Positions 24,227 to 49,747 of a stretch of DNA of 64,000 bases are shown here, one piece after another. The notes under the pieces are model-generated. The model was not told where the DNA came from. It made no database searches and was given only the letters and a program-made list of their open reading frames with translations. The stretch comes from Butyricimonas synergistica DSM 23225 (GTDB lineage Bacteria; Bacteroidota; Bacteroidia; Bacteroidales; Marinifilaceae). The stretch's first letter is position 1; each line of letters starts with the position of its first letter. The stretch spans positions 62,001-126,000 of the forward strand of contig NZ_KB903374.1 in assembly GCF_000379665.1 (NCBI RefSeq). Reading direction: 5' to 3'. The translations under genes were made by a program, and so were the position numbers.

Positions 24227-24778
24227 ATGGATATAGTTATCGGGATAAATAGCAAAGACCGGCAAGTTTTCAAATTTTTTTTCGAGAAGAATTTCTCGTC
24301 TGTAGTTATGTTTGCCGATAAGTATGTGAAAGATATGGAGGTGGCGGCAGACATCGCCCAAGAGTGTTTTATCCGTTTGTGGCGAGAGAAATTGAGTTTC
24401 GAGTCAGAGGAAAAGATTAAGGGATTCTTGTATACATCGGCGAGAAATCTAGCCCTGAACGAGTTGAAACATGAGGCTATTGTTAATCGGTACGTGCAGA
24501 AAGGTATAATTGAATCGGAAGAATATTTTTTGGATAACGTGGCGGAGGAAGAGGTGTACGCGTTGGTTTATAAAGCTATTGATGAGTTGGCGCCTCAATC
24601 CCGTAAGGTTATTTTGATGTCGCTTCAAGAACTTTCGAACGGGGAGATTGCAGAACAATTGAATATTTCAGTCAATTCAGTAAGAACATTGAAACAAAAT
24701 GCCTATAAGAAACTAAAGGGATTGCTGAGGGACTATTTTTATCTTCTTTTTTTGGTCGATTGGACTCGTTTATCTTGA
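24227..24778 (+). CDS. ECF RNA polymerase sigma factor (FecI-like), locus 2
   Basis: The 183-residue ECF sigma factor has region 2 at about 20-80 (VMFADKYVKDMEVAADIAQECFIRLW) and region 4 at about 122-170, with the helix-turn-helix at GEIAEQLNISVNSVRTLKQNAY. It stands alone with its own exact housekeeping promoter, so basal expression does not depend on the uptake signal. The FecR gene follows after 103 nt. It is distinct in sequence from the sigma factors of loci 1 and 3, which suggests separate promoter specificity. Confidence 0.93.
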   Translation: MDIVIGINSKDRQVFKFFFEKNFSSVVMFADKYVKDMEVAADIAQECFIRLWREKLSFESEEKIKGFLYTSARNLALNELKHEAIVNRYVQKGIIESEEYFLDNVAEEEVYALVYKAIDELAPQSRKVILMSLQELSNGEIAEQLNISVNSVRTLKQNAYKKLKGLLRDYFYLLFLVDWTRLS

Positions 24779-24833
24779 CCTTTTCGGCATGATACAATTT
24801 TTAACATTAAATTTTTAGAAGGGGATTCATCGA

Positions 24834-24856
24834 TTTCTTTTTCTTGGTTGTTATAT
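24834..24856 (+). promoter_or_regulatory. Possible ECF-sigma promoter in front of fecR 2
   Basis: This block, ending GGTTGTTATAT, is nearly the same as the one at 1035-1057 and lies 25 nt before the fecR start. The two match over most positions, although the flanking gaps do not. It is a candidate promoter for self-activation of the locus. Confidence 0.35.
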
Positions 24857-24881
24857 ATATGATCAGATGAAATAAATTGAA

Positions 24882-26051
24882 ATGACAATGCAAGATAAAA
24901 GAATATATCAATTGATAGCCAAGCAACTCGTGGAAGGGTTGAATGAGGAGGAAAAGCAGGAGTTGAACGATTGGATCGCAGAACCGGGAAATGACTCGTT
25001 CTACCAGGAAATAACGGAGAAAGAGTATGTGAAGTTGAGGTTAGAAAAATGGTCGTCCATTGATGTAAAAAAGCATACTACCGCTTTTGAGAAGGAAATT
25101 GGGATAAAACCTGTCAGGAGAGTGAGTGTATGGTGGCAGTATGCTGCTGCTGTTGTTATTTTCTGTGTTATCGGAATCGGATTTTGGATGGCTGTAGGGA
25201 AAGATGCGGAGGTGAAAAAAGTGGCAGGTATGGATATCGTGCCAGGGGAGACCAAGGCTGTTTTGGTATTGAATGATGGACGACAAGTAGATCTGGGTGT
25301 AAAGAAAGTCGATAGAATTATTGAAAAAGACGGGAAAGTAATCATGAATGATTCTCTCGGAATTAATTACAACCAGGAATCAGGGGAACAAGGTGTGGGG
25401 TTGAAAAATGAAATTATTGTACCAACCGGAGGGGAGTACAATTTGATTTTGAGTGACGGTACCATCGTTTATTTGAATGCTGAAAGCAGGATAGAGTTTC
25501 CCGTGAAATTCTCGGGTAAAGAGAGGGTAGTGACTTTGGTGGGGGAAGCGTATTTCCAGGTTACTGCCTCTAAAGAACATCCATTTATCGTGAAAACAAA
25601 GGATATGGATGTGTTGGTGACGGGGACAGAGTTTAACGTGAAGGCATACCCGGATGAATTAGAGGTGCAAACGACGTTGTTGAAAGGGGAAGTGACCGTT
25701 TTTGCCGGTTTCGAGAAAAAGGAAAAAATGACAATTTCTCCTAATCAACAAGCTCAATGGGACCGGGAACACGTGGCGTTGGAGGTTCGGGAAGTGGATC
25801 CCGGTTTGTTTATGGCTTGGAGAAACGGGCGGTTTATCTTCCGGCAAGATCGTTTGGAAGATATTATGAGGACATTGGCACGTTGGTATGGCGTGGAAGT
25901 AGTTTTCTCTGATGAGTCTATAAAGAATATGACTTTTGCCGGAAAACTTGATCGAAGTGAAGACATTGCGCCGATATTGGATGTGTTAAGGGCTACAGGT
26001 AAATTAACCGTGAATGTAAAAGGAAAACAGATCGTTTTGGGGGTGAAATAG
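24882..26051 (+). CDS. FecR-type anti-sigma factor, locus 2
   Basis: The 389-residue membrane anti-sigma factor has a cytoplasmic N-terminus that begins IYQLIAKQLVEGLNEEEKQELNDWI, one transmembrane helix at about 86-107 (YAAAVVIFCVIGIGFWMAV), the FecR domain at about 182-275 (GGEYNLILSDGTIVYLNAES, then GEAYFQVTASKEHPFIV), and the DUF4974-like C-terminal domain from about 316 (FIFRQDRLEDIMRTLARWYGV). It should hold the sigma factor of 24227 inactive until the STN domain of the SusC at 26139 signals. Confidence 0.93.
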   Translation: MTMQDKRIYQLIAKQLVEGLNEEEKQELNDWIAEPGNDSFYQEITEKEYVKLRLEKWSSIDVKKHTTAFEKEIGIKPVRRVSVWWQYAAAVVIFCVIGIGFWMAVGKDAEVKKVAGMDIVPGETKAVLVLNDGRQVDLGVKKVDRIIEKDGKVIMNDSLGINYNQESGEQGVGLKNEIIVPTGGEYNLILSDGTIVYLNAESRIEFPVKFSGKERVVTLVGEAYFQVTASKEHPFIVKTKDMDVLVTGTEFNVKAYPDELEVQTTLLKGEVTVFAGFEKKEKMTISPNQQAQWDREHVALEVREVDPGLFMAWRNGRFIFRQDRLEDIMRTLARWYGVEVVFSDESIKNMTFAGKLDRSEDIAPILDVLRATGKLTVNVKGKQIVLGVK

Positions 26052-26055
26052 AAAA

Positions 26056-26080
26056 CGGGTGATGCTGCGAACATCTCCCG
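26056..26080 (+). promoter_or_regulatory. RNA hairpin with conserved loop after fecR 2
   Basis: Arms CGGGTGATG (26056-26064) and CATCTCCCG (26072-26080) pair with one mismatch and enclose CTGCGAA. It starts 5 nt after the fecR stop. Together with the loop-closing bases the loop reads GCTGCGAACA, matching the loops after fecR 1 (GCGCCAACA) and fecR 3 (GCTGGCAACA), although the stems are unrelated in sequence. Confidence 0.7.
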
Positions 26081-26138
26081 CTTGGATTTTCACTTTATGT
26101 AAAATAAAGCGTTTAAATAAAATCAGTTAGACAAAAGT

Positions 26139-29100
26139 ATGAAAAAGAAGTGGAAAAAATACGTTCCTTATGGGGAATTGTATGTAAAAATTTTGAGGAT
26201 TATGAAATTATGCGTGTGTTTATTGCTATGTTCAATGATGTCGATTTCGGCAAATGTACGAGCTCAATATGCCAAGATGAGCCTTGAAATGAAGGACGTG
26301 ACGTTGGAGGAGGTGATTTGGGCATTGGAGAAAAAGAGTGACATTACCTTCTTTTACAATGTTGCGGACGTGTCTGAGGTGCGGAAGGTGGATGCAGTGT
26401 TTAAAGATGTTTCTTTGGAGAAGATCTTGGATAAAGTGTTGAAAGGAACGAATCTTTATTACGAGATACAAGGAAAGGTCGTGGTGATCAAACGAGGTTC
26501 TCCGGTATCCATGTTGGATACATTGAAAATCACGAAGGTAAAGGGAGTTGTGAAAGATAAACAAGGAGAACCGTTGCCCGGGGTAACGGTCATGGAAAAA
26601 GGTACTACTATTGGGGTGGCTACCGGGATAAATGGAGAGTTCACGTTTACAACCACCAAGCAGGATAGTGTGACTTTGATTTTTTCTTTCGTGGGGATGA
26701 AAACGAAGTTTGTGACTTGGAAAGGGGAGAAAGAGTTGAAAGTCGTGTTGGAGGAAGATGCGCAGGAGATGGATGAAGTGGTTGTGACAGGGTATCAGCG
26801 TGTGAAGAAATCGAATATGGCGGGTTCCGTGAGTACAATCAAGGCGGAAGATCTTGTATTGAACGGAACACAGTCTCTGGAGCAGGCGTTACAAGGTAAG
26901 TTGCCGGGAGTGGTTATCCAAAATCAAGACGGTTTGGTCGGTACCCGCCAAAAAGTACGGGTACGGGGAACTTCGACGTTGTTAGGTAGCCAGGAACCCG
27001 TGTGGGTTGTGGATGGAATTATACAAGAGGATCCGCTTCCTTTTAAAGCGACGGATTTGTCCACGTATAATACAAGTCCGGATAATATTGATATGATTCG
27101 GAATTTCGTGGGTAGTGCCATTGCTTGGTTGAATCCTTCCGATATCAAAGATGTAACCGTGTTGAAAGATGCTTCCGCTACAGCAATTTATGGGGTGAAG
27201 GCGGCGAACGGAGTTATCGTGATTACCACGAAAAAGGGAGAAGAAGGGCGTATGTCTATCAGTTATTCCGGTAATTTCTCTATCGGCTCAAAGGTGACGT
27301 ATGATAAGTTGAATTTGATGAATTCTAAGGAGAGAGTAGATGTTTCCCGGGAAATATACGAGAGAGGATTAGTAGGTAGTCAGCCTTTGGCAAACGTGGG
27401 ATATCAGGCTTTGTTGCAACAATATTTGCAGGAAAAAATTTCTTACGATGATTTCAATGCCGGGGTAAAGAAATTGGAAGTTGTAAATACGGACTGGTTT
27501 GATCTTTTGTACGAGAATCCGTTTAGTTATTCCAATAACATCAGTGTTTCCGGTGGCAGTGATAAAACTACGTATTATGCATCTTTCGGTATAACCAATA
27601 ACAATGGTACTGCCAAAGGGAACGACTCGAAGAGTTACCAAGGAAGTGTAAACGTGAACACGATTTTTTGGGATCGGTTACAATTTTCAGCTAAAGTAGC
27701 CGGAAGTGTTTCAAAAACGAATGGTTTTCATAGTAGTGTTTCGCCTTATTCCTATGCTTCCACCACAAGCCGTGTGCTTCCTGCGTTTGAAGAGAATGGG
27801 GAATGGGCATATTATGTCACTCGTTCCGGGTATAAATATAATATATTGAATGAGTTGGCGGAGTCCGGTAACGGAAATACGTCCAATTCCCTGAATGTAA
27901 ATATTGGTTTGAATTGGGAAATCATTAAAGGATTGAAATATGAAATGTCGCTGGGATACAACTATTCTTCAACGCATGGAGAATCTTGGGCGACGGAAAT
28001 GACAAATTATATCGCAAAAATACGTGGATATGAATTTGGAATGTATGGTCCTAATGATACTCATTATCAGGCTTCAAGGTTGCCTCATGGAGGACAGTTG
28101 AATATGTCGGATTCTCGTAACGAGAATTATACATGGAGAAATCAGATCTCTTATGTGAAGAATTTCGGCAGGCATTTGCTTACGGCAACCGTGGGACAAG
28201 AGGTTAATAGCACGAAATACGACGGGTTCACGGGGACGTTTTACGGGTATTTGCCTAACAGGGGACAAACGATAAAGAACCCTCCTTTGACAAACACGGG
28301 TGTTTATGGTAATATTTCGGAGAATACCGGGTATGCACAACCGACGACTTCAATTATTGATAATAAGTCGAATAAGCTTTCTTTCTACGGGGCGTTTACC
28401 TATACTTTTGACGAGCGTTATGTTTTTAATGCCAGTATTCGTTCGGATGCATCCAATCGTTTCGGGCAGGATAAAGATGCCCGTTATCTGCCGGTTTGGT
28501 CTTTGGGTTTACGTTGGAATATGGGACGGGAACATTTTCTGGAGGGACAAGACTTCTTGAATGAATTCAGTTTACGCTTAACTTACGGCTACCAGGGAAA
28601 TGCAAGTGAGGCTGCAGGTCCGGATTTGATTGCCAGGATTCCTTCCGGAGCGGGGATATCTAAAGTGACTGGCGAATATTATTTGGAGATAAAGAGTTTG
28701 CCGAACCCGAAATTGAAATGGGAAAAGACAGCAACCGTGAATGCCGGTGCGGATTTTGTGTTCTGGAAGAATAAGATTAACGGATCGTTTGAATATTATT
28801 ATAAAAAGACCACGGATGCGATTATCAATAAGGAGGTGCCTTACGAAAATGGGGTGTTGAGCATGCCGATGAACGGAGGTTCGCTGGAAAATTACGGATG
28901 GGAGTTATCCTTTAGCTTTGCACCCGTGCGGACAAAGAATTTTATCTGGACGATGGGATTAAATACTTCCAAGAACTATAATAAGGTGACTAGTAAATTG
29001 GAATCGAACGAGAATTGGCAGCAGGCTGTTGCTGGAAATATAAATAAGCAAGGGTATCCCGTGTCGGGATTTTGGGCGTTTGAGTTTGCGGGGTTGAACC

Positions 29101-29720
29101 CGGAGAATGGAATTCCTTTGTATAATTTACCCGGAATAGATACCCCGGAGGCAAAAACAGACGCTACGGTGTACATGAAATACATGGGTAAGTTGGACCC
29201 TGATTTTACCGCCGGTTTGAATATGGGATTTAGATTTAAGGATTTAACCCTTTCTACTTCTTTTTATTTGTCGGTTGGTGGTAAGAAATTTTTGGCGAAA
29301 ATGTTTGATAATGATATGATCAATAGTACCCCGTATGAATATAATAATTTGCCCAAAGATTTGGTGAACCGGTGGCGTAAACCGGGAGACGAGAAGTACA
29401 CGAATATTCCTTCTTTGCCGGAATTCGGTAAAGCTTCAGTTGATTTATCTTCGTCAAGCGCTTATAGTTACGAATTGTATAATTACACGGATATTCGTGT
29501 CGTGAATGCTTCTTTCCTGAGATGTAACAGTATTTCATTATCTTATAATTTGTCGAAAGGGTGGATTAAAAAGTTTGCCCAAAATATGGGATTTACGTTT
29601 AGTGTATCCAATCCTTTTATGATTGTAAGCAAGGATTTCAAGGGAAAGGATCCGGAAGTTGCAACCGGTTCTCAACCTTTGTCACAAAGCTACACGTTGG
29701 GTGTGAATTTAAGTTTCTAA
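26139..29720 (+). CDS. SusC/RagA-type TonB-linked outer membrane transporter with STN domain, locus 2
   Basis: The 1193-residue transporter has a signal peptide (about 18-44), an STN signalling domain (about 47-110; LEEVIWALEKKSDITFFYN), a carboxypeptidase-regulatory-like domain (about 132-215; VKGVVKDKQGEPLPGVTVMEK), a plug (about 215-360; DEVVVTGYQRVKKSNMAGS, WVVDGIIQEDPLPF, VLKDASATAIYGVKAANGVI), and a barrel ending in LGVNLSF. It is closely related to the locus 1 SusC over the whole plug and much of the barrel, so both probably take a similar ligand class. Its codons are visibly richer in A/T than those of locus 1. Confidence 0.96.
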   Translation: MKKKWKKYVPYGELYVKILRIMKLCVCLLLCSMMSISANVRAQYAKMSLEMKDVTLEEVIWALEKKSDITFFYNVADVSEVRKVDAVFKDVSLEKILDKVLKGTNLYYEIQGKVVVIKRGSPVSMLDTLKITKVKGVVKDKQGEPLPGVTVMEKGTTIGVATGINGEFTFTTTKQDSVTLIFSFVGMKTKFVTWKGEKELKVVLEEDAQEMDEVVVTGYQRVKKSNMAGSVSTIKAEDLVLNGTQSLEQALQGKLPGVVIQNQDGLVGTRQKVRVRGTSTLLGSQEPVWVVDGIIQEDPLPFKATDLSTYNTSPDNIDMIRNFVGSAIAWLNPSDIKDVTVLKDASATAIYGVKAANGVIVITTKKGEEGRMSISYSGNFSIGSKVTYDKLNLMNSKERVDVSREIYERGLVGSQPLANVGYQALLQQYLQEKISYDDFNAGVKKLEVVNTDWFDLLYENPFSYSNNISVSGGSDKTTYYASFGITNNNGTAKGNDSKSYQGSVNVNTIFWDRLQFSAKVAGSVSKTNGFHSSVSPYSYASTTSRVLPAFEENGEWAYYVTRSGYKYNILNELAESGNGNTSNSLNVNIGLNWEIIKGLKYEMSLGYNYSSTHGESWATEMTNYIAKIRGYEFGMYGPNDTHYQASRLPHGGQLNMSDSRNENYTWRNQISYVKNFGRHLLTATVGQEVNSTKYDGFTGTFYGYLPNRGQTIKNPPLTNTGVYGNISENTGYAQPTTSIIDNKSNKLSFYGAFTYTFDERYVFNASIRSDASNRFGQDKDARYLPVWSLGLRWNMGREHFLEGQDFLNEFSLRLTYGYQGNASEAAGPDLIARIPSGAGISKVTGEYYLEIKSLPNPKLKWEKTATVNAGADFVFWKNKINGSFEYYYKKTTDAIINKEVPYENGVLSMPMNGGSLENYGWELSFSFAPVRTKNFIWTMGLNTSKNYNKVTSKLESNENWQQAVAGNINKQGYPVSGFWAFEFAGLNPENGIPLYNLPGIDTPEAKTDATVYMKYMGKLDPDFTAGLNMGFRFKDLTLSTSFYLSVGGKKFLAKMFDNDMINSTPYEYNNLPKDLVNRWRKPGDEKYTNIPSLPEFGKASVDLSSSSAYSYELYNYTDIRVVNASFLRCNSISLSYNLSKGWIKKFAQNMGFTFSVSNPFMIVSKDFKGKDPEVATGSQPLSQSYTLGVNLSF

Positions 29721-29739
29721 TGATATAGAGATAAGTCGT

Positions 29740-31236
29740 ATGAAAAATATATTATATTTTATTTTATTGTTAGGATTCGTTGGATGCAGCGATTTCCTGG
29801 AGGAAGCCAGTCAGGATGAGGTTCGTCCGACGACGGCGGATGATTTGATGCAGGTGATGGTGGGTGAAGGTTATCCTATGGATTATTTCCAATATGTTTA
29901 TGTTGATTTCTTGACGGATGATGTACAGTGCAATGGTGCTGGCGGACAGGAAACTTTGGAGAGTTCCGTGGAGGATATGTATCCCTTGTTTTCCTGGAGT
30001 GATGATATGTACGAGAAATTGACTCATGATAAGTATAATACTTGGCAGATTTGTTATAATAAAATCATGGGGTGTAATACGGTTATCGATTATATGGATC
30101 GGGTGAGTGGAGAGGAAAAAACAAAGAATAATATGTTAGGGCAGGCTCTTGTATTGCGGGCGTATTATTACTTGTTATTGGTAAATTATTATGCCTTACC
30201 TTATAATTATGGTGACCCGACTAAAAATCTGGGAGTACCCTTGAAATTGGAGATGGAGGTGGTTGATGGTTTTTTACCCCGGAAAACTGTGGCTGAAGTT
30301 TATGAACAAATGATAACTGATCTGGAAAAGGGAATTAAATTGCTGGAAGAGAATAAAATGGAAATGTCCTTGTATAAGATTAGCGCTTTGGCGGGAAAAG
30401 CTATTTTGTGTAGGGTGTATCTTTATATGGAGGATTGGGATAATGCTTTGAAATATGCCAATATGGTGTTGGGAGAGAAGCCTGCCTTGACTTCGTTGGC
30501 TAGTGCTCCTGAAGATGCCATGCAATATCAGGGAAGTAATACGTGGTGTGTTTACAATGAATCTACCAGTAACGAGATTATTTGGATGTATGGAGGAAAT
30601 CGGGAATATTCATGTTATCCTGGTGGTAATGGTGTTGCTACTAGTCCGTACACGGCATCTGATGAATTGATGGATTTGTATGAGTTTTCAACGGATAGTG
30701 ATAATCACTGGGATTTACGACGTTATATGTATTTCAAATACGAGGCTTGGATGGATTGGTCTATTTTTAGACCAACGATTTTCCCCGCTTATGGATTTAA
30801 GGGAGGGAAAAATGAAAAATGGGCTTCGCATGGAATTCGAACGGCAGAATTGTATTTAAACCGGGCAGAGGCATATGTCCGCAAATTTATGAAAACAGGC
30901 GAGGATAATTACCGGACTTTGGCTTTGGCGGATTTGAACAAATTACGAGAGAATCGTTATGATACGCGTAATGTGGCTTATAATAAAGTTGATTACACGA
31001 ATGCAGAGGAGTTATTGCAGTTCTACAAGGACGAGCGCCGCAGGGAGTTATGTTTTGAAGGTCATCGCTGGTTTGATCTGCGTCGTTACGGGATGCCGGA
31101 ATTGACACACGTGTATTTTATCAAAGCGGATTCAAAACAACAATTAGTTTTAGGGAAGGAAGACCCTCGTTATGTGTTGCCGATACCGCAATCTGCTTTA
31201 GATCGTAATCCTTATTTGGAACAAAATAAACGTTAA
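29740..31236 (+). CDS. SusD/RagB-type surface lipoprotein, locus 2
   Basis: The 498-residue lipoprotein has Cys16 after LLGFVGC, then SDFLEEASQDEVRPTTADD as in SusD 1. The helical-repeat core includes LRAYYYLLLVNYYALPYNYGDP and ILCRVYLYMEDWDNALKYAN. The C-terminal signature is YKDERRRELCFEGHRWFDLRRYGMPE, ending YVLPIPQSALDRNPYLEQNKR. It starts 20 nt after SusC and should cap that barrel at the cell surface. Confidence 0.95.
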   Translation: MKNILYFILLLGFVGCSDFLEEASQDEVRPTTADDLMQVMVGEGYPMDYFQYVYVDFLTDDVQCNGAGGQETLESSVEDMYPLFSWSDDMYEKLTHDKYNTWQICYNKIMGCNTVIDYMDRVSGEEKTKNNMLGQALVLRAYYYLLLVNYYALPYNYGDPTKNLGVPLKLEMEVVDGFLPRKTVAEVYEQMITDLEKGIKLLEENKMEMSLYKISALAGKAILCRVYLYMEDWDNALKYANMVLGEKPALTSLASAPEDAMQYQGSNTWCVYNESTSNEIIWMYGGNREYSCYPGGNGVATSPYTASDELMDLYEFSTDSDNHWDLRRYMYFKYEAWMDWSIFRPTIFPAYGFKGGKNEKWASHGIRTAELYLNRAEAYVRKFMKTGEDNYRTLALADLNKLRENRYDTRNVAYNKVDYTNAEELLQFYKDERRRELCFEGHRWFDLRRYGMPELTHVYFIKADSKQQLVLGKEDPRYVLPIPQSALDRNPYLEQNKR

Positions 31237-31246
31237 TCGAGAAATT

Positions 31247-32155
31247 ATGAAACTGCATTTAATTTATATATTTATATTGGCAGCGAGTCTGGTCGCTTGT
31301 AATGACGATAATAGTTTAACGCCGACAGAAACGCCTGAATTCGGGTATAGTGTGCCCCAGGGGAATCATGATTACGATGATCGTATCGTGGATTGGAATA
31401 AGAGATGCAACACGTTTATCCTGTATAAATTTGATTTGAAGGAGTTGTATTGGGACGTGAACCGTTGGAATGAATCAACGCCGACACCAGAAGATAGTAG
31501 TTATCCGTATCCTTACAGTAATGGATTGCTGGGAGCAATTGCGGATGAAGTTTACGTGGGAGAACAGTTGGATTTGGTTGAAACGTTGTTTTTAGATTTT
31601 TACCCAGATTCTACATTGTACCGTTTACTTCCGTTGAAGTTATTGTTATGCGGGGAGTTAAATTGGCGTACGGTGGATGGTAAGGTTACATTTTATAATG
31701 TATATAGTGGTTATGATTATTTGGCGTTTAACTGGGGAAACGAAGATGTCCTGACGATGACAAACGTACAGAAAAATACTTTCAAAAACGAAGTTAATTA
31801 TGCCTTTTTAACCCGGTTGTTGAATAGTGGTAGGATCGTGGAAGATGCGAGTTTTTACGAGGGAATGAATTACGAGGATAAAGTGACGCAAACGAATATG
31901 TATGAGCGCGGCTTTATAAAATCCGGAACAAAGCAAGAGGATGATGTGGAAATCTATATTCAGGCGATTATTCAAACCCCGTATGAAGATTTGATTGCAG
32001 AACCGGCAGATAAAGACTACACGAATAAAGGAATATTGCACGCCAAAAAGGATGTGAATGGCTATATCCGGAAGAAATATGATATTCTAGTGAACAAGTT
32101 TAAGGAGAATTACGGAATAGATTTGCAGTCGATTGGCAATGTCGTTTTGAAATAA
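31247..32155 (+). CDS. HExxH-less homologue of substrate-import zinc metallohydrolase lipoprotein, locus 2
   Basis: A 302-residue lipoprotein, with Cys18 after AASLVAC. It is homologous to the protein at 7444: both begin with a VPQGNHDYD-type segment and an ILYKF/ILYEF stretch, and both end with a KKYDILVNKFKENYGIDLQ-type helix. As in that protein, no HExxH exists. The segment that appears to correspond reads EVNYAFLTRLL, so the two zinc-binding His and the catalytic Glu are missing. It is likely to bind rather than cut. It sits 10 nt after SusD and 7 nt before the TlpA gene. Confidence 0.65.
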   Translation: MKLHLIYIFILAASLVACNDDNSLTPTETPEFGYSVPQGNHDYDDRIVDWNKRCNTFILYKFDLKELYWDVNRWNESTPTPEDSSYPYPYSNGLLGAIADEVYVGEQLDLVETLFLDFYPDSTLYRLLPLKLLLCGELNWRTVDGKVTFYNVYSGYDYLAFNWGNEDVLTMTNVQKNTFKNEVNYAFLTRLLNSGRIVEDASFYEGMNYEDKVTQTNMYERGFIKSGTKQEDDVEIYIQAIIQTPYEDLIAEPADKDYTNKGILHAKKDVNGYIRKKYDILVNKFKENYGIDLQSIGNVVLK

Positions 32156-32162
32156 AAGATAT

Positions 32163-33209
32163 ATGTTGAAGATTGTTTTCATTTTTTGGGTCTTTCTCGG
32201 GGGAATTACCCCCGGGATTGCCCAAACTGGTCTGACATTGTCCGGGAGATTGCGTTTGTTGGAACCCGTGGAAATAAAAGTGACTTCCATCGAGGGTGAA
32301 AAGATATTATCTGTTCTTGTTGAGAATGGTAAAGAGTTTCGTTCGGAGTCTGTAGAAATCGTGCCGGACGTGTATATATTGAATATCGGAAACACGGTAC
32401 AGCCGATCTATTTGAATAATCGGGAGGTAACAGTGAAGGGATTTTATGATGAGAAAAATCCGGAGAATAGTTCTCTTGCTTTTAGTGGGATTGATGAATT
32501 TTTAGAATTATCACGATGGCTTCCGACTGAAAAAGCGGCAAAGAATCGAGTGATTAATCCCGAGGTAAAAGGAAAGTTGAGCGGAACGATGTATAGTGCC
32601 TTGGCTTATATAGCTGATATGGAGCAATACGAACCGAATAAAATGTTGCTGGATCTTGTGCCGAAGGCCGGGCAGAATGCAGCTTCATTTCGTTGGTTAG
32701 CACATCGTGTGGATAGCTTGGGGCGTTTTGCCGTTGGGGCGCAGGCGCATGATTTCGAGTATGTTGATCCGAACGGGGAAATGGTCCGTTTGAGCGATTT
32801 CCGGGGAAAACTGGTGTTGGTTGATTTTTGGGCATCGTGGTGTGGACCTTGCAGGCATGAGATGAAAAGTCTTTTGCCGATTTATAACGAATTGAAAGGG
32901 AATGATCTGGAGTTTATCAGCGTGTCGTTGGATAAACGGGAGAAGGACTGGAAAAAGATGTTGGCGGAAGAGGATTTGCCTTGGGTGATGTTGTGGAATC
33001 AGGAAGGATTCACGATTGGTAATGAACCCAACGAGATTCAAAAAGCATATGGTTTTTACGGTATTCCTTTTATCGTGTTGATCGATAAAGAAGGGCGAAT
33101 TCTCGCAAGGGGGTTACGGGGGAGAGAAGGTGAAAGAGGCGATATTGGAAGCCAGAGAGTAATTGGCGATTATTGTGTCTATAAGTTTTTTAGGTTTCGT
33201 ATTGTATAA
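32163..33209 (+). CDS. TlpA-type thioredoxin with frameshifted C-terminus
   Basis: The 348-residue exported protein has a signal peptide ending near residue 20 (GIAQT), a DUF4369-like beta-rich N-terminal domain (about 22-130), and a TlpA/AhpC-type thioredoxin domain (about 195-320) with WCGPC at 226-230 and cis-Pro segment YGIPFIVLID. After ARGLRG the frame reads an atypical tail ending KFFRFRIV. Reading one G fewer in the run 33118-33122 instead gives LRGEKVKEAILEARE and a stop at 33160-33162, which is a normal family ending. The catalytic domain is intact in both versions. Confidence 0.85.
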   Translation: MLKIVFIFWVFLGGITPGIAQTGLTLSGRLRLLEPVEIKVTSIEGEKILSVLVENGKEFRSESVEIVPDVYILNIGNTVQPIYLNNREVTVKGFYDEKNPENSSLAFSGIDEFLELSRWLPTEKAAKNRVINPEVKGKLSGTMYSALAYIADMEQYEPNKMLLDLVPKAGQNAASFRWLAHRVDSLGRFAVGAQAHDFEYVDPNGEMVRLSDFRGKLVLVDFWASWCGPCRHEMKSLLPIYNELKGNDLEFISVSLDKREKDWKKMLAEEDLPWVMLWNQEGFTIGNEPNEIQKAYGFYGIPFIVLIDKEGRILARGLRGREGERGDIGSQRVIGDYCVYKFFRFRIV

Positions 33210-33226
33210 CAAGATAAATTCTGTAA

Positions 33227-34930
33227 ATGATGAAAAAATATTTCTTATTATTACTGGTGTGCATCGGGATAGGTAAGGTGAATGCACAGCTTGTCAAGCA
33301 AGATAATCAAGCACAAAAGAAACAAGCTGATTTGGACTGGTATAACTGTTCCTTTGACAAAGACGGGGTTTACGGGGTAGAGGTGAATAAGGCTTATGAA
33401 TTTCTGAAAGGGAAAAAGATAAAGAAAAGACCGGTAGTCGCTTTGATCGGGACTGGATTGGATGTTGAGCATGAGGATATAAAGCAAGCTATTTGGGTGA
33501 ATCCGAAAGAAAAAGCAGATGGGAAGGATAATGATAAAAACGGTTTTGTGGACGATATTAACGGGTGGAATTTTCTTGGAGGCAAGAACGGGCTGGTGAT
33601 GGAGGCTTTGATGCAGGAGGGAGACCGGGAATTCTTGCGTTTGAAGGATAAATACGCGGATTATATGACGAGCAACGGGGAGTTTTTTAAGATCGTGAAC
33701 GGAAAACGGACAAAAGTTGCAGCCCCGGCGGATCTTGCGGAGTATTCTTATTATAAAAATAAGGTTATGCCGGAATCGCAGCTTGCTAGGACTTATGGAG
33801 GTTGGCAAGTAGCTTATGTAATAGAGGAATACGCTCAAAAATTTAAGGAAGAATTGGATGCAAAATTTCCAGGTAAGAAACATACGTTGGAAGAGTTCCA
33901 GACTTATTATGACCCGAAAGCCCCCCAGGATACCTTGAGAGATGTGGCTTTCACGCTTATTGCCATGGGATTTAACTTGTATAAAACCGATGAACTTGAC
34001 GTGATTTATAAAAATTTTGTAGAATCTTCGGTAGCAAGAGGCAAGGATACATATGAAAAGGCTTTGCAAAGGGGTGGTAACGACGGGCGGAAAGATGTTG
34101 TTGGGGATAATTACTTGGATATAAAGGATAATAAATACGGGAATAATGTGTTGTTGACTTCAGAGGCGGCAACGGGAACCATGCAAGCCGGTATTATCGG
34201 GGGAAAAAGAGGAAACGGTCTTGGTGGAGATGGTATCATGGATCAAGCTGAGATTATGTGTTTGCGAGTGAGTGCGGCTGGCGGGGAACCTTATTTGAAA
34301 GATATGGCTCTGGCTATTCGTTATGCTGTTGACCATGGTGCGGATGTGATAACCCTGCCGCAACAGAACACCTTGTATCCGGAAGCACAAAAGGTATGGA
34401 TGACAGAGGCTTTGCGTTATGCAGAAAGTAAAGGGGTGTTGGTGATCGTTCCTGTTTGGGAGTTATCTCGTGATTTAGCCAAACAGGTGTTTTTCCCGCA
34501 TCGTTGGATGGACGGAAGCAAGGAGTTGACGAATTTGATGGTGATCGCTTCTTCCGATAAGAATGGTAATCCTTCCATGAATTCTAATTATGGCGCGAAA
34601 GAGCTGGATTTGTTCGCTCCAGGGACGAATATCTATGCCTCGTACATGGGGGATACTTATAAGACTGGGACCGGAGCGGGGTTGGCATCTGCAACCGTGG
34701 CGGGAGTGGCAGCTTTGGTTAAGGCTTACTATCCGCATCTGACAGGGGCGCAGATACGGAATATATTGTTGGAATCGGTGACATCCCGGAAAGGCACAGA
34801 AGTAGAAAAAGGGATTATCGTGGATGGGAAACAGGCTCAGGACTTATTCCTTTTTGAGGATTTATGTTTGTCCGGAGGTATATTGAATGCTTATCAGGCT
34901 GTGGTGACTGCAGATAGGTTTGATAAATAA
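33227..34930 (+). CDS. Subtilisin-fold (S8) pseudoprotease
   Basis: The 567-residue protein has a signal peptide ending near residue 20 (KVNAQ) and an S8 peptidase body typical of Bacteroidetes (PVVALIGTGLDVEHEDI, then GFVDDINGWNFLGG). All catalytic positions are changed. The Asp of the usual D-T/S-G motif is Gly75 (IGTG). The His of HGTxVAGII is Thr316 (TGTMQAGII). The Ser of GTSxAxP falls in GTGAGLASATVAG at 481-493, where no Ser is available. The oxyanion Asn region reads VPVWELSRD instead of the usual AAGN form. The fold markers are kept, so it is probably a binding protein or chaperone. It is encoded between TlpA and the aspartic-protease-like genes. Confidence 0.88.
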   Translation: MMKKYFLLLLVCIGIGKVNAQLVKQDNQAQKKQADLDWYNCSFDKDGVYGVEVNKAYEFLKGKKIKKRPVVALIGTGLDVEHEDIKQAIWVNPKEKADGKDNDKNGFVDDINGWNFLGGKNGLVMEALMQEGDREFLRLKDKYADYMTSNGEFFKIVNGKRTKVAAPADLAEYSYYKNKVMPESQLARTYGGWQVAYVIEEYAQKFKEELDAKFPGKKHTLEEFQTYYDPKAPQDTLRDVAFTLIAMGFNLYKTDELDVIYKNFVESSVARGKDTYEKALQRGGNDGRKDVVGDNYLDIKDNKYGNNVLLTSEAATGTMQAGIIGGKRGNGLGGDGIMDQAEIMCLRVSAAGGEPYLKDMALAIRYAVDHGADVITLPQQNTLYPEAQKVWMTEALRYAESKGVLVIVPVWELSRDLAKQVFFPHRWMDGSKELTNLMVIASSDKNGNPSMNSNYGAKELDLFAPGTNIYASYMGDTYKTGTGAGLASATVAGVAALVKAYYPHLTGAQIRNILLESVTSRKGTEVEKGIIVDGKQAQDLFLFEDLCLSGGILNAYQAVVTADRFDK

Positions 34931-34941
34931 TAGGTTATGTT

Positions 34942-36081
34942 ATGAAGGTGATATACAGGATCATTATTATATGGTTGTTTTGTATGGTGGTTCTTCCGGT
35001 AGCAGCACAGCAGTATAGGACTGTGCTGCCTTACCGGATGGTCGGGGGCAAGATGGTCGTGGAGATGGAGATGAACGGAACCCCTCGTTCCTTTATTTTT
35101 GACACGGGGGGACGCACGGCTCTGACCGGGGAGGTTTGCGAGGAACTGGGTTTAGTTGTCGTAGATTCGCTGGTCGCCACAGACGTGAATAGCAAGAAAG
35201 CGGCTTACCCGATCGTGGCGATAGAAAGTCTGCTCACGCCCGACAAGAAAATTAATTTCACAAATGTGCCGGCAATGAAATTGCCTGAACCTTCTCCTTT
35301 CGCGTGTTTTCAGGCGGATGGATTGATCGGTAGCGATTTGTTGGCACGTACTATTGTGGTGATTGACGGGAAGGCAAAAACCATCACTATTACTTCTGCC
35401 GAGAATCCGTCAACCGTGTCATTGCGGAAGATGATCCCTTTCGTGAAAGCGGGGATGCCTATTATCTCTTTGCAAGCCGGGGCGGGGAATAATATTACTT
35501 GCCTGTTCGATACGGGGAGTCCGTCTTTCTTTTCCTTGAAAGACACCGATTTTGATGTATTGCGGTCTGCCGGTGCTTTTGATATCCTGTCCGAGGGATA
35601 CGGGGAAGGTTCTATCGGGGTTGCCGGGATGGCAGACGCAGATGTTTCCCACCGTGTGCGTTTTCCCTTGTTGTCCGTGGGGAGTACAAGATTTAGGAAT
35701 GTAAGTTCCGAGACTTCTACCCCGCCTTTTACTTTGTTAGGAGTGGAATTGTTGGATTATGGCAAAGTAACGCTGGATTATCCTAGGGCTCGTTTCTACT
35801 TCGAGGCGTATGAACCGGAGAATGATTTGGAAAGTAAGCATTACAACTTGGGGTTAAGGGTGAAGGATGGTGAATTAGTGGTGGCTACCGTGTGGAGTGC
35901 CATGAAAGGGCAGGTCGAAGTGGGAGATAAGGTAACTAGAATAAACGGGAAACCCGTGGGAAGATACGATTTTTGCGAGAGTATTATTAATGGGATTCCC
36001 GAGTTGAAGGCGAAAAAGAAGACGAAGTTGACGATACAGACCCAGCAAGGGGAGAAAGTGATTGTCTATCAAAAAGAATAG
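34942..36081 (+). CDS. Two-domain retropepsin-like aspartic protease with PDZ domain, copy 1
   Basis: The 379-residue exported protein has a signal peptide ending near residue 23. Two retropepsin-type halves each carry a DTG: FIFDTGGRT with Asp54 and CLFDTGSPS with Asp190. Each is followed by a flap-like and a hydrophobic-hydrophobic-Gly segment (ADGLIGSDLL, FTLLGVELLDYGKV). The C-terminal 85 residues resemble a PDZ domain (LVVATVWSAMKGQVEVGDKVTRINGKP). Both DTG sites are intact, so the protein could be an active monomeric aspartic protease in the periplasm. It starts 11 nt after the pseudosubtilase and ends 3 nt before the next homologue. Confidence 0.85.
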   Translation: MKVIYRIIIIWLFCMVVLPVAAQQYRTVLPYRMVGGKMVVEMEMNGTPRSFIFDTGGRTALTGEVCEELGLVVVDSLVATDVNSKKAAYPIVAIESLLTPDKKINFTNVPAMKLPEPSPFACFQADGLIGSDLLARTIVVIDGKAKTITITSAENPSTVSLRKMIPFVKAGMPIISLQAGAGNNITCLFDTGSPSFFSLKDTDFDVLRSAGAFDILSEGYGEGSIGVAGMADADVSHRVRFPLLSVGSTRFRNVSSETSTPPFTLLGVELLDYGKVTLDYPRARFYFEAYEPENDLESKHYNLGLRVKDGELVVATVWSAMKGQVEVGDKVTRINGKPVGRYDFCESIINGIPELKAKKKTKLTIQTQQGEKVIVYQKE

Positions 36082-36084
36082 AGA

Positions 36085-37251
36085 ATGAAAAATATCAGGA
36101 TATTATTCGTTTTTGTTGCTGTTTCTTTCTCTTTAGCAGGAAATGCGCAACAACAAGCGACTCGTCGGGTTTGTGACACGGTTCATTACGAGTTCGTTCA
36201 CGAGAAGATTATTATTCCCGTGACAGTGAACGGGGTGAAAGTGAAGTATATCGTGGACACGGGTGGGCAGACCGGGACAATAAGAGAAAATGCCATGGAA
36301 ATGAAAGCCATGGGCGGGATTGGAGCACGAGGGGTATCTGATGTGAACGGGATGAGTCTGTCTTATGACGAGGCGATCTTGAAGGACGTGCAGTTGAGCC
36401 CGAATTACAAGTTGGCTCAAATGAAAAGTATTATTTTTCCGCCAAATGGCTTCTTCCGGGAACTGGGAGTTGCCGGTATTTTGGGGAGTGATGCTTTTGC
36501 GCAAGCGGTGGTTACTTTTGATGCTCGTGATAAAATCATGGTCATCAATTACCCATATCGTCCGGGAGGTTTGAAAATCACGGAAGGTGTGCCGTTTTAC
36601 CCGGGCAGCACGAATCACCCTATCGTGGACGTGGACTTTAGTGGAACGACGAAGCGAATTTTGTTTGATACAGGGGCGCAGGGATTGTTGGCTCTTGCTG
36701 CCAATGATTACGAGAGTTTAAAGAAGACTGGAAGTCGGTTGTTAGCTAAAGCCTTTGGAATTAATAGTGTTGGGATAGGTGGCTTTGATTACAAGAATGC
36801 GGCAGAAATAGACAAAGTAAGTGTCAATCGGGTTAATTTCGTGGGGAAGGAATTTGTAAACATGGAGAGTATCACGGTCAAGATGGGAAGGTCTTTGATT
36901 GGTGTGGATATGTTGAAATACGGGAAAGTGGTGATAGATTACGCACGTAACCGGTTTTATTTTTTCCCTTATGGAGATGTGGTTGAAGATTTATCTGGAA
37001 ACTTGAAAACGTGGAACGTGGGTATTTTACCCGTGAACGGTCATTTCGAGGTAACCACGGTATGGGACGACATGAAAGAGCTGGTTGCCTTGGGTGATCG
37101 GGTCGTGCGTGTAAACGGAAAGGAATTGTCGGAATTGAAACAGAGTCAATTGGAAGTAGAGGCATTGCTTGATAGTATTGAAGGAGATAAAACCGAGATC
37201 GTGATCTTGAAGGATGGTAAAGAAAAGAAGGTTGAAATCAGAAAAATTTAA
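36085..37251 (+). CDS. Two-domain retropepsin-like aspartic protease with PDZ domain, copy 2
   Basis: This 388-residue paralogue of the preceding gene has a signal peptide ending near residue 22 (AGNAQ). The DTG motifs are YIVDTGGQT (Asp58) and ILFDTGAQG (Asp195), with AGILGSDAF and RSLIGVDMLKYGKVVIDY as the later conserved parts. A PDZ-like C-terminus contains VTTVWDDMKELVALGDRVVRVNGKEL. Both catalytic motifs are present. The short spacing on each side (3 and 5 nt) indicates tight co-expression with copy 1 and with the thioredoxin-fused homologue. Confidence 0.85.
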   Translation: MKNIRILFVFVAVSFSLAGNAQQQATRRVCDTVHYEFVHEKIIIPVTVNGVKVKYIVDTGGQTGTIRENAMEMKAMGGIGARGVSDVNGMSLSYDEAILKDVQLSPNYKLAQMKSIIFPPNGFFRELGVAGILGSDAFAQAVVTFDARDKIMVINYPYRPGGLKITEGVPFYPGSTNHPIVDVDFSGTTKRILFDTGAQGLLALAANDYESLKKTGSRLLAKAFGINSVGIGGFDYKNAAEIDKVSVNRVNFVGKEFVNMESITVKMGRSLIGVDMLKYGKVVIDYARNRFYFFPYGDVVEDLSGNLKTWNVGILPVNGHFEVTTVWDDMKELVALGDRVVRVNGKELSELKQSQLEVEALLDSIEGDKTEIVILKDGKEKKVEIRKI

Positions 37252-37256
37252 CGAGT

Positions 37257-38528
37257 ATGAAAACTAAATTGTTTATAGGTTTGGTAATAATGTTGTTGCC
37301 ATTGTTGACAATTGCTCAATCCAAGAACACTGCCACGGAGGTAAAGGATTACCGGGAAGTGGACGGTAAAATAATTATTGGAATGGTTGTGAACGGGGTG
37401 CAGGCGGATTTTGTGCTGGACTTGGCTGGACATAATGCTATCTTGCCGGAATACGTGGAGAAATTTAATATAGACCCGAATCAGGAAGGTGATTTTCATT
37501 ACGATTCTTTTCTGTACAAGAAAGTCCCGACGTCCAAAAGTGTTTCTATTAGCACAATTTCTTTCGGGAATAATGTGTTCGGGAATAGTGTGGCGGCATT
37601 CGTGCTGGAAGATGAACCTTATTTGCGAAAACTCGGGGTTGCTGGAGTTGTTGGCGGGGCGTTGTTCCGTAACGTGGTATTGACGATCGATAGTAAACGC
37701 AAAAAGATTACCACGTCTGTCCCGTACCGTCCCTCGTACATGAAGTTAGATCATCGTGCTGATCTGAGTATCCTGCCGGGTTCGGTGGTTGCTTTCTCGG
37801 TAACGATAGACGGGGAGGTGTTCTCTTTGGCTTTTGACACGTGGAACGAGGGGATGGTTACTTTGACATCGTCGGATTATGCTAAAATAGGGGGGAGTGC
37901 CGGGAATGAGGTTGCGTTGTATAATGGTTACGGGCAGCTTGTGAAAACGAGTAACACGAAAGTGGCGGGCAAATGTGACTTCGTAAAAAATAGTTTCCCG
38001 GGGATGGTCGTGGCAGAAAATAAGGATTTGCCTCGTTCTGTCTTGGGAACCGGAATCCTGAAGGAAGGAATACTTTCTATTGATTTCCAGAAACAAAAAG
38101 TGTACTTCCAGGCTTTTGATTTGGCGGAAGTGAAAGACGAGGTCCTGTCCGGTTCGACAGTAACGGTGGAGGCGGGTAAGTTGAACCCGATCACCCGTGA
38201 TTATTTTTTGGAGCATATCTACGATTATCGGAAAGATAAAGAGTTTGTTTTTAAGGGCGATAAGCCCGTTGTGATCGATTTTTGGGCGACGTGGTGCGGT
38301 CCTTGCATGCGGTTGATCCCGGAATTGGAAAAGATGGCGGAGAAGTATAAAGATAAGGTCATTTTTTTGAAAGTAAATGCCGACAAGGAAAAAGAGTTGT
38401 GCAGTATGTTTAATGTTGTTGCGCTTCCTACCTTGTTTTTTATTCCTGTCGGGGGAAAGCCGATTATTGAAACGGGGGCGATGCCAGAGAAGTTCGAGAA
38501 GATTATTCAGGAACAATTACTAAAATAG
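37257..38528 (+). CDS. Degenerate retropepsin-like protein fused to thioredoxin
   Basis: The 423-residue exported protein has a signal peptide ending near residue 20 (LTIAQ). The first 290 residues follow the two-half layout of the two upstream genes, but the catalytic motifs are altered: DTG becomes DLA at Asp55 (FVLDLAGHN) and DTW at Asp194 (LAFDTWNEG). In place of the PDZ domain the chain ends in a thioredoxin domain (about 318-423) with WATWCGPCMRLIPELE, Cys347 and Cys350, and cis-Pro segment VVALPTLFFI. The protease half is probably inactive while the thioredoxin looks functional. I do not recall this domain pairing as a described family. It closes the operon. Confidence 0.85.
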   Translation: MKTKLFIGLVIMLLPLLTIAQSKNTATEVKDYREVDGKIIIGMVVNGVQADFVLDLAGHNAILPEYVEKFNIDPNQEGDFHYDSFLYKKVPTSKSVSISTISFGNNVFGNSVAAFVLEDEPYLRKLGVAGVVGGALFRNVVLTIDSKRKKITTSVPYRPSYMKLDHRADLSILPGSVVAFSVTIDGEVFSLAFDTWNEGMVTLTSSDYAKIGGSAGNEVALYNGYGQLVKTSNTKVAGKCDFVKNSFPGMVVAENKDLPRSVLGTGILKEGILSIDFQKQKVYFQAFDLAEVKDEVLSGSTVTVEAGKLNPITRDYFLEHIYDYRKDKEFVFKGDKPVVIDFWATWCGPCMRLIPELEKMAEKYKDKVIFLKVNADKEKELCSMFNVVALPTLFFIPVGGKPIIETGAMPEKFEKIIQEQLLK

Positions 38529-38548
38529 TTGTTTGGTGTATTAAAAAG

Positions 38549-38582
38549 AAGCAGTTCGGATTGGTTTTCGAACTGCTTTTGT
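38549..38582 (+). terminator. Intrinsic terminator of uptake locus 2
   Basis: Arms 38549-38558 and 38569-38578 form a 10-bp stem (AGCAGTTCG core), followed by a T run (CTTTTGTT). It stands 20 nt after the last stop codon and is the clearest intrinsic terminator among the three uptake loci. Confidence 0.8.
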
Positions 38583-38676: not shown

Positions 38677-39228
38677 GTGAGTATAAAGCAGGATATAGTA
38701 TCAAATATTAAGCGAGGAGATTTATATGCCTTCAAAGAATTCTTTGATGATTACTATATCATGTTGTGTGTATTTGCAGCCCGCTATTTGAAAGATGACG
38801 AACAATGTAAGGATGTGGCTCAGGAAACTTTGACCGGGTATTGGGAGAGGCGAGAGGATTTTGATGATATTTATAAGGTGAAAGGATATCTTTATACTGT
38901 TACGCGGAATCACTGTTTAAATATCTTGCGTCACGAGAAAGTGAGTTTGAATTACCGGAAGATGTATGAGGAGGAATTAGAATCCGAGCGTGTTTTTGAA
39001 GAACAGGTTATCGAACAAGAAACTTATCTTTTGGTGCGAAATGCTGTGGATAAATTGCCGCCTCAAATGCGGAAGATTATCCGTTATTCTCTAGATGGAA
39101 TGAGTAATCCGCAGATAGCAAAGGAGATGGGAATCGGAGAGGGCTCTGTAAAGTCGCTGAAACAAACGGCATACCGTAAATTAAGGGCGCAATTAAAAGG
39201 GCATTTTTATTTATTGTTATTTATTTGA
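38677..39228 (+). CDS. ECF RNA polymerase sigma factor (FecI-like), locus 3
   Basis: The 183-residue ECF sigma factor appears to start at GTG 38677, because the first in-frame ATG lies inside the essential region 2 helix. Region 2 (about 20-80) contains CVFAARYLKDDEQCKDVAQETLTGYW, and region 4 (about 125-172) contains PQIAKEMGIGEGSVKSLKQTAY. FecR follows after 69 nt. Sequence differences from the other two factors in region 4 suggest a private promoter set. Confidence 0.9.
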   Translation: MSIKQDIVSNIKRGDLYAFKEFFDDYYIMLCVFAARYLKDDEQCKDVAQETLTGYWERREDFDDIYKVKGYLYTVTRNHCLNILRHEKVSLNYRKMYEEELESERVFEEQVIEQETYLLVRNAVDKLPPQMRKIIRYSLDGMSNPQIAKEMGIGEGSVKSLKQTAYRKLRAQLKGHFYLLLFI

Positions 39229-39297
39229 CGATTTTTTTTACTTTCTGACTATTCCTGTTTGAGGGTTCGCGTGTTATATGAGTAAAATAAGATAACA

Positions 39298-40524
39298 ATG
39301 GAATCGTTCAAAAAGCATTTTAGGATAGCTGAGTTTTTGGCGGCATTTTTTACTGATGCTCCGACGGAACAGGACAAGAGGGATTATGAGGAATGGGAGA
39401 AAGAGCGGGAAAGCAATCGAGATTTAGCCAAGCATGTGTTGGATTTGAATAATTATATCCGGTTTGAATCTACGACAAGGCGGTTTGACCAACAAGAAGG
39501 CTGGAAGGTTTTTAAAGATCATTTGGCAAGAAAATCCAATATGCTTGCTGATAAAACAGGTATGATAAAGAAAAAGCCTTCTGGAAAAGTGTGGAATAGG
39601 TTCAAATATATAGCTGGATATGCGGCAGTGGGTATCATATTGATTATTTATGGTATTTTCTATTGGATAAACCAACCGGTCAAGGAAGAGCCGGGAGCTG
39701 TTTTCGCTTACCGGATTGAAGCCGGGACGACCGGAGCCCGTTTGACCATGGCAGACGGGAAGGTTATGGATATAGTGAAAGACCAGACCTTTTTATTGAA
39801 AGAGTCAGATGGAACTGTAATTATGGCGGATTCAACGGGAATAGGTTATCAGATCCACGAAGTTAAGAATGAAAAAGAAGTGCGGAATATGATTCAGACG
39901 TTGACTGGGATGGAGTACTCGTTGACTTTGTCGGATGGTACAAAAGTTTATTTGAATGCGGAATCGAAATTGAGTTTCCCGGTGAGTTTCAAGGGGGCGC
40001 AAAGAATCGTGGCGTTGTCCGGAGAGGCGTATTTTGATGTAGCCAAAGATGCCGAACATCCGTTCGTGATAGAAACTCGGGATTTGTCAGTTAAGGTGTT
40101 GGGAACTTCTTTTAATTTGCGGGCTTATGATGACGAAAAGGTGGTAACGACAACTTTGGCATCAGGGAAAGTGCAGGTTTTTGACGGTCGACAATTTGAA
40201 GATATTATTTCCGGGGAACAAGTCGTTTACGAAAAGGCGGCAAGAACCATGGTGGTGAATGAAGTAGATGTTGCACGTTATGTCGCGTGGCGAAGCGGTA
40301 GGTTTATTTTTAGGAACGAGCGTTTGGAGGATATAATGGCTTATTTGGCTCGATGGTATCATGTAAAATACCAATTTGTGGATGACGACGTGAAGAATAT
40401 CAGAATCGGGGCTAAATTGAATCGGTATGACAACATGAATCCGATTATCGATATGTTGAAAATGAATTCGTTGATGGAGATAACCTTACGGGATAGTGTG
40501 TATTTGATTTCGAGTAAAAAATAA
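39298..40524 (+). CDS. FecR-type anti-sigma factor, locus 3
   Basis: The 408-residue anti-sigma factor has a cytoplasmic N-terminus of about 100 residues, longer than in loci 1 and 2, and one transmembrane helix at about 105-125 (GYAAVGIILIIYGIFYW). The FecR domain lies at about 204-300 (MEYSLTLSDGTKVYLNAES, GEAYFDVAKDAEHPFVI), and the DUF4974-like end from about 336 (FIFRNERLEDIMAYLARWYHV). It partners the sigma factor of 38677 and the SusC of 40599. Confidence 0.93.
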   Translation: MESFKKHFRIAEFLAAFFTDAPTEQDKRDYEEWEKERESNRDLAKHVLDLNNYIRFESTTRRFDQQEGWKVFKDHLARKSNMLADKTGMIKKKPSGKVWNRFKYIAGYAAVGIILIIYGIFYWINQPVKEEPGAVFAYRIEAGTTGARLTMADGKVMDIVKDQTFLLKESDGTVIMADSTGIGYQIHEVKNEKEVRNMIQTLTGMEYSLTLSDGTKVYLNAESKLSFPVSFKGAQRIVALSGEAYFDVAKDAEHPFVIETRDLSVKVLGTSFNLRAYDDEKVVTTTLASGKVQVFDGRQFEDIISGEQVVYEKAARTMVVNEVDVARYVAWRSGRFIFRNERLEDIMAYLARWYHVKYQFVDDDVKNIRIGAKLNRYDNMNPIIDMLKMNSLMEITLRDSVYLISSKK

Positions 40525-40526
40525 AA

Positions 40527-40557
40527 GATGCGTTTACGCTGGCAACATAAACGCATC
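40527..40557 (+). promoter_or_regulatory. RNA hairpin with conserved loop after fecR 3
   Basis: A perfect 10-bp stem, GATGCGTTTA (40527-40536) with TAAACGCATC (40548-40557), encloses CGCTGGCAACA. It starts 3 nt after the fecR stop. The loop GCTGGCAACA matches those after fecR 1 and 2, while the stem is different. No T-tract follows. Confidence 0.75.
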
Positions 40558-40598
40558 AGAATCAATAAATAAGTGTTCTTTATTAATTGTTCAAAATT

Positions 40599-43898: not shown

Positions 43899-43912
43899 AA
43901 ATTGAATACACG

Positions 43913-45331: not shown

Positions 45332-45344
45332 AGGGGCAAAATAT

Positions 45345-46139: not shown

Positions 46140-46145
46140 TTATAA

Positions 46146-49746: not shown

Positions 49747-49747
49747 G

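Follow-up and report, generated by a model that had tools for sequence, protein, structure and literature searches.

A cluster of genes in Butyricimonas synergistica DSM 23225, in which a SusC/SusD uptake pair is followed by protease-like and thioredoxin proteins, lies within a window of 64,000 nucleotides of contig NZ_KB903374.1 (positions 62,001 to 126,000), the whole stretch of DNA analysed here. Eight open reading frames on the forward strand, spanning positions 26139-38528 with intergenic gaps of 3-19 bases, encode in order SusC, SusD, a lipoprotein, TlpA, a pseudosubtilase and three aspartic-protease-like proteins termed AP1, AP2 and AP3-Trx, the last of which carries a C-terminal thioredoxin. 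Positions, gaps and family searches agree with the gene content given in a preliminary description of the locus. Here we show that this operon is a conserved and recurring variant of SusC/SusD uptake systems, controlled by a sigma factor and FecR and equipped with a dedicated periplasmic module. It represents a repeated, selected locus family, with two pseudoproteases, of which one is fused to thioredoxin, at the core of its periplasmic part.

The transporter gene (26139..29720) encodes a SusC/RagA-type TonB-dependent protein scoring 731 bits against TIGR04056 (cut-off 368), with an STN domain at residues 70-118 (42.4 bits), and adjoins a gene for a SusD-like lid lipoprotein (29740..31236; PF14322 93.9 bits; PF07980 82.8 bits, cut-off 23.1), which together identify a SusC/SusD uptake system. 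The third gene (31247..32155) encodes a lipoprotein distantly related to TIGR04549, followed by a TlpA-like periplasmic thioredoxin with a WCGPC motif (32163..33209), recognised by PF00578 (67.2 bits), PF13905 and alignment. The pseudosubtilase (33227..34930; PF00082, 83.4 bits) has a subtilisin-like S8 domain without its catalytic tetrad. AP1 (34942..36081; PF13650, 34.0 bits; D54 and D190) and AP2 (36085..37251; PF13650, 43.4 bits, with a weak PDZ_2 match of E 0.0099 at 333-385) are two-DTG aspartic-protease-like proteins, and AP3-Trx (37257..38528; PF00085, 86.3 bits) combines the motifs DLAG (D55) and DTW (D194) with a CGPC thioredoxin site (C347/C350). The Pfam scan of these eight proteins found no glycan-active enzyme, in line with the preliminary description, and identity as a polysaccharide utilization locus was rejected for this operon.

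That description had overlooked two genes directly upstream on the same strand, encoding an extracytoplasmic function (ECF) sigma factor (24227..24778; TIGR02937 84.2 bits, cut-off 42.9; PF08281 51.5) and a FecR-type anti-sigma factor (24882..26051; PF04773 59.6 bits, PF16344 77.3 bits). With the STN domain of SusC, all elements of FecIR-type transenvelope control are present. The clear terminator that had been noted after the last gene was borne out by a hairpin on the same strand at 38547-38580, in a region with a folding energy of -31.4 kcal/mol (z -8.1; none of 200 shuffles folded equally well); the hairpin's T-rich 3' side fits a terminator-like element, and a consensus terminator scanner gave no call there. 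Because the sigma factor and FecR genes lie directly upstream, SusC carries the STN domain and the hairpin follows, the unit is better defined as 24227-38580. The genome also encodes a membrane protein of the DsbD type, by which periplasmic thioredoxins could be recharged.

A search of genomes for the same gene association gave a total of 23 AP3-Trx loci in 12 genomes, ten belonging to the family of the window's organism and two to other families of the same order (loci and genomes are cited below by our L and G numbers). Within the family, 12 of 56 genomes passed the AP3 profile at 1e-12 and ten of these exceeded 300 bits; G015 and G047 gave weak matches only, to relatives with intact DTG motifs. 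Five of 393 genomes passed in the order sample, four strongly (the window's own, G045, G123 and G277) and G380 weakly, and in the phylum sample only the window's own genome did so out of 395. AP3-Trx occurred in all six genomes of the window's genus that were searched, and a scan of genome contigs with AP3 returned eight loci, every one titled Butyricimonas or Odoribacteraceae.

Gene maps placed the pseudosubtilase in 22 of the 23 loci, SusC and SusD in 21 (all but L017 and L088; in L018 SusD, and in L020 SusC, appears to be split) and TlpA in 18. Full-length AP1 was present in 18/23 and AP2 in 9/23, with one or both in 19; the loci with neither are L017, L019 (a 189-aa AP1 fragment with the first motif only), L084 and L122. 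In 13 loci, that of the window among them, a FecR gene stood before SusC; none was seen in L017, L088 and L092, and in the remaining seven the retrieved stretch stops short of its place. A further pseudosubtilase at a contig end (G020, L091) stands outside these counts. In L009 (15210-19397), as well as L014, L020, L079 and L080, three extra proteins similar to TlpA come after AP3-Trx, along with an unknown one of 271-276 aa. In L086 (5789-8325) SusD and the pseudosubtilase are separated by a pair of DDE transposase genes, and no lipoprotein or TlpA match was found there.

Alignment of the window subtilase places G75, T316, E412 and G485 at the positions of the catalytic Asp, His, oxyanion Asn and Ser, respectively, which we assume from the known motifs of subtilisin; the protein has the S8 fold and lacks the residues of an active S8 peptidase. 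The losses hold across homologues: Asp, His and Asn are gone in 22/22 pseudosubtilases and Ser in 21/22, L017 having a serine. Different residues have taken the places of His and Ser; the oxyanion Asn (position 412 of the window pseudosubtilase) is replaced by Asp or Glu in all 22, an acidic substitution that may itself be functional. On one strand, which presumably lines the substrate groove, the eight intact rows printed have [M/I/C]S[F/L]G, whereas LPxQN is found in 15 of 22 pseudosubtilases; Gln380 is present in 21/22, against Gly in 35 of 38 intact rows. All 22 form a single clade with 100/100 support in a tree of 56 rows, from which 7 of 63 had been removed beforehand as copies or fragments and in which the catalytic columns were retained. 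The fixation of new residues in this clade argues for a new function, in which the old groove may bind differently. The subtilases of L010 and L047, in which the Asp is kept, His has become Glu and Ser has become Arg or Lys, occupy a separate branch. Among nine subtilase genes in the window's genome at E 1e-30, three are pseudosubtilases, all within AP3-Trx operons, one is partly lost and five are intact and located elsewhere.

AP1 and AP2 have two DTG or DSG motifs in every full-length row and are retropepsin-like in this respect. AP3 has two D[T/S]G motifs in none of 23 rows and thus falls outside that class, its motifs reading D[L/I/M][A/S/T/N]G and D[T/S]W. The preliminary description of these as damaged DTG motifs was correct as to the loss, conserved in all 23, and overstated in its wording, both aspartates (D55, D194) being kept in 23/23; Trp196 is likewise invariant. 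The AP3 thioredoxin domain, which occupies the place of the weak PDZ match of AP2, has CxPC in all 21 tabulated rows and also in L017 and L122. AP3 (23 rows), AP1 and AP2 form separate clades (support 100/100, 94/98 and 100/100), with an unsure branching order, since the program warned of long branches meeting. The AP3 of L009 aligns to the window AP2 at E 5e-20, and a search of AP3 against PDB sequences gave a single chance-level match (E 0.069).

The description had counted three protease folds whose active sites are gone. For the pseudosubtilase and AP3 this stands; for the lipoprotein, proposed as a lost zincin, it was not established. Its TIGR04549 match covers the C-terminal third only and scores 20.7 bits (cut-off 75), it had no Pfam match, and HExxH was found in none of 17 rows printed and none of ten in a separate alignment. 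A PDB sequence search with the 10-row alignment returned nothing at E 1, and none of eight TIGR04549 matches in the window's genome exceeded the cut-off.

Both inactivated proteins are maintained by purifying selection. Pairwise Nei-Gojobori estimates of nonsynonymous to synonymous divergence (dN/dS) for four pairs of nearest relatives were 0.060, 0.126, 0.066 and 0.083 for the pseudosubtilase, compared with 0.104 for one intact subtilase pair, and 0.070 to 0.141 for AP3-Trx; values for the window/L013 pairs are rough, as dS exceeds 1. In the pair L079/L080 dS was uneven along the operon, at 0.02-0.04 in SusC, SusD and the lipoprotein and at 0.52 in the pseudosubtilase, a pattern that gene conversion or recombination may have produced.

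Evolutionary distances separate the operon into two blocks, SusC-SusD-lipoprotein and TlpA-pseudosubtilase-AP1-AP3. Across 16 of the 23 loci (all except L014 and L020, whose SusC is incomplete, L018, whose SusD is split, and L017, L086, L088 and L122, which lack genes), pseudosubtilase and AP3 distances correlated at 0.91 with each other and at 0.50 and 0.49 with SusC; SusC, SusD and the lipoprotein inter-correlated at 0.96-0.97, and correlations between that set and the pseudosubtilase and AP3 were 0.43-0.50. When TlpA and AP1 were added (11 loci, from 14 with all seven genes minus L014, L018 and L020), correlations were 0.82-0.99 within and 0.51-0.65 between blocks, and the boundary of the blocks fell after the lipoprotein and before TlpA. 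In both sets the lipoprotein co-varied with SusC and SusD (r 0.96-0.99). The window's genome has three operons with the periplasmic module (the window's, L009 and L011) in addition to the divergent sister L010. Identity of the window proteins to L009/L011 is 41/40% for SusC, 37/35% for SusD and 26/23% for the lipoprotein, and 69/57% for the pseudosubtilase, 72/64% for AP1, 70/64% for AP3-Trx and 58/43% for TlpA, so that the receptor side is divergent between paralogous operons and the periplasmic side mostly conserved. In L017 the pseudosubtilase and AP3-Trx are fused in one 966-aa frame.

Variant loci offer some hints at the substrate. L088 has the order lipoprotein-TlpA-pseudosubtilase-AP1-AP3, with no SusC or SusD match within the 19.5 kb retrieved. 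Downstream of the module are a gene for an M16 peptidase, whose HxxEH motif reads HFLEH and which points to peptides as substrate, and an alpha-galactosidase-like gene. In L084 the module is accompanied by an intact subtilase, and AP1 and AP2 are both missing. In L010 (11158-13392), a GH85 endoglycosidase adjoins the subtilase that has lost part of its site and an AP1-like protein that is intact; this locus has no AP3-Trx. These neighbours point to protein or glycoprotein substrates.

The reading that we favour tentatively, and to which we would give somewhat under an even chance, is that of a TonB-dependent importer supplying peptides to a periplasmic complex of pseudoproteases and thioredoxin, which would capture and reduce them, in most loci with intact aspartic peptidases close by. 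SusC/SusD, together with the co-varying lipoprotein, would import a peptide or protein fragment; the pseudosubtilase and AP3-Trx would form one periplasmic complex, in which both former proteases would grip the polypeptide without cleaving it; and the fused thioredoxin, assisted by TlpA, would reduce its disulfides. In most copies AP1 and AP2, whose motifs are intact, would presumably cleave it afterwards. In favour of this reading stand the recurrence of the locus, the coupled loss of sites in two proteins under purifying selection, the single clades of pseudosubtilase and AP3, their co-variation, the natural fusion in L017, the retention of AP3-Trx with SusC, SusD and lipoprotein in L122, the M16 peptidase of L088 and the DsbD-type protein. 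A more specific form, in which two inactivated proteases of unrelated folds hold the substrate for the thioredoxin and so act as a peptide-specific disulfide reductase supplied by interchangeable SusC/SusD receptors, seems to us possible and rather doubtful.

Several observations weigh against peptide capture and reduction. The window SusC scores 212 bits against RagA and 209 and 204 against two other SusC homologues, which we take to be levan transporters; with such similar scores its sequence gives no sign of peptide import and does not decide the substrate (the nearest solved SusC pair is 8ypt/8ypu). AP3 retains both aspartates throughout, and the rebuilt strand means that the pseudosubtilase may bind something other than the ligand of the old protease groove. 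The fusion is known from one 5.6-kb contig of a metagenome-assembled genome that carries no SusC, and its structure model reached a predicted TM-score (pTM) of 0.45, which leaves the domain packing unreadable; a structure search with this model was filled by subtilases and left the AP3 part uncovered. Without the distant L093, correlations are 0.78-0.99 within and 0.65-0.79 between blocks, and the lowest within-block value (TlpA/AP1, 0.78) is no longer above the highest between-block one (lipoprotein/AP3, 0.79). The correlations support contact without proving it, as linked recombination may yield the same pattern. L122 keeps SusC, SusD, lipoprotein and AP3-Trx and lacks the pseudosubtilase, AP1, AP2 and TlpA; its AP3 has evolved fast and branches as sister to that of L081 from the same genome, which makes this locus a derived reduction.

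Among other explanations, we consider it unlikely that the pseudosubtilase and AP3 act on the AP1/AP2 peptidases, either allosterically as partners or as chaperones. The AP1 distances do track those of the pseudosubtilase and AP3 (0.90 and 0.96; 11 loci), and CspC of Clostridioides difficile, acting in spore germination, is a precedent; however, four of 23 loci have AP3-Trx with no full-length AP1 or AP2, and L084 has an intact subtilase instead. Still less probable is an AP3 that remains alive, its aspartates serving an unconventional hydrolytic or other acid-base reaction beside the thioredoxin. D55, D194 and W196 are each invariant, yet in the first motif Thr has become Leu, Ile or Met and Gly has become Ala, Ser, Thr or Asn, and in the second Gly has become Trp, at Thr and Gly positions that aspartic proteases require.

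We find it improbable that the periplasmic module is a signal relay reporting imported ligand to FecR and the sigma factor without a processing role: FecR stands before SusC in 13 of 23 loci and SusC has the STN domain, but variation in the module is largely uncoupled from that in SusC, and to our knowledge STN-FecR signalling normally requires no periplasmic relay of this kind. Equally improbable is a glycoprotein or glycopeptide substrate whose protein part the module handles. The GH85 gene of the sister locus L010, with its partly lost subtilase and AP1-like protein, makes such a substrate possible in the wider group, as would the alpha-galactosidase-like gene of L088, although the window operon has no glycan enzyme and L010 no AP3-Trx. 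Variation where His and Ser were lost would suit random active-site loss in a decaying operon, a scarcely credible explanation, rejected by the low dN/dS, the single clade, the recurrence in 23 loci and the new residues that are invariant or nearly so. Neither intact relatives at these places nor a missing gene association, which the preliminary description had named as signs of decay, was found.

If capture and reduction of peptides is the true function, these gut Bacteroidota would gain a specific route to disulfide-containing peptides from food, host or rival proteins, and the operon would be a clear example of protease folds re-employed for binding and redox tasks. The literature search found no title or abstract describing the system, part of it being blurred by "SusC" matching "susceptible".

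Further gene runs lie on either side of the operon. At 278-24039 of the window, genes for a sigma factor, FecR, SusC, SusD and a lipoprotein again stand in a row. Behind them come ABC exporters that include an ABC_transp_aux part, a pair of MutS-like proteins consisting of the III/V domains only, a protein resembling thioredoxin, and genes of the TolC-HlyD-ABC-MacB type. Positions 38677-50803 hold a third sigma-FecR-SusC-SusD operon with DUF4843, PKD, TlpA, an unknown 577-aa frame at 48013, which has relatives in L010, L094 and L084, and a thioredoxin.

SusC/SusD loci are mostly interpreted as glycan loci, and sigma factor/FecR, SusC, SusD and a lipoprotein are usual in polysaccharide utilization loci. 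The window operon shares these genes and differs in having protease-like and thioredoxin genes in place of any glycan-active enzyme. With RagAB of Porphyromonas gingivalis, described as a peptide importer, it has a SusC/SusD-type TonB-dependent pair in common; the part of that report available to us mentions no pseudoprotease-thioredoxin module such as the window operon has (PMC11817032), and the window SusC scores about equally against RagA and against two other SusC homologues. CspC, which acts in C. difficile spore germination (PMC6636752) and is reported elsewhere to activate CspB, resembles the window pseudosubtilase in having a subtilisin fold without the catalytic triad. The latter lies outside the CspC family (32.8 bits against an NCBIfam cut-off of 675), and in contrast to the spore setting of CspC/CspBA it has a signal peptide and belongs to an uptake operon. 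Intact Bacteroidota peptidases of the same S8 family occur in the window's genome and order, and differ from the pseudosubtilases, in which the catalytic residues are lost and other positions refixed. Lastly, AP1 and AP2 share the two-DTG architecture of Asp_protease_2 proteins, from which AP3 is set apart by its DLxG/DTW motifs and its thioredoxin.

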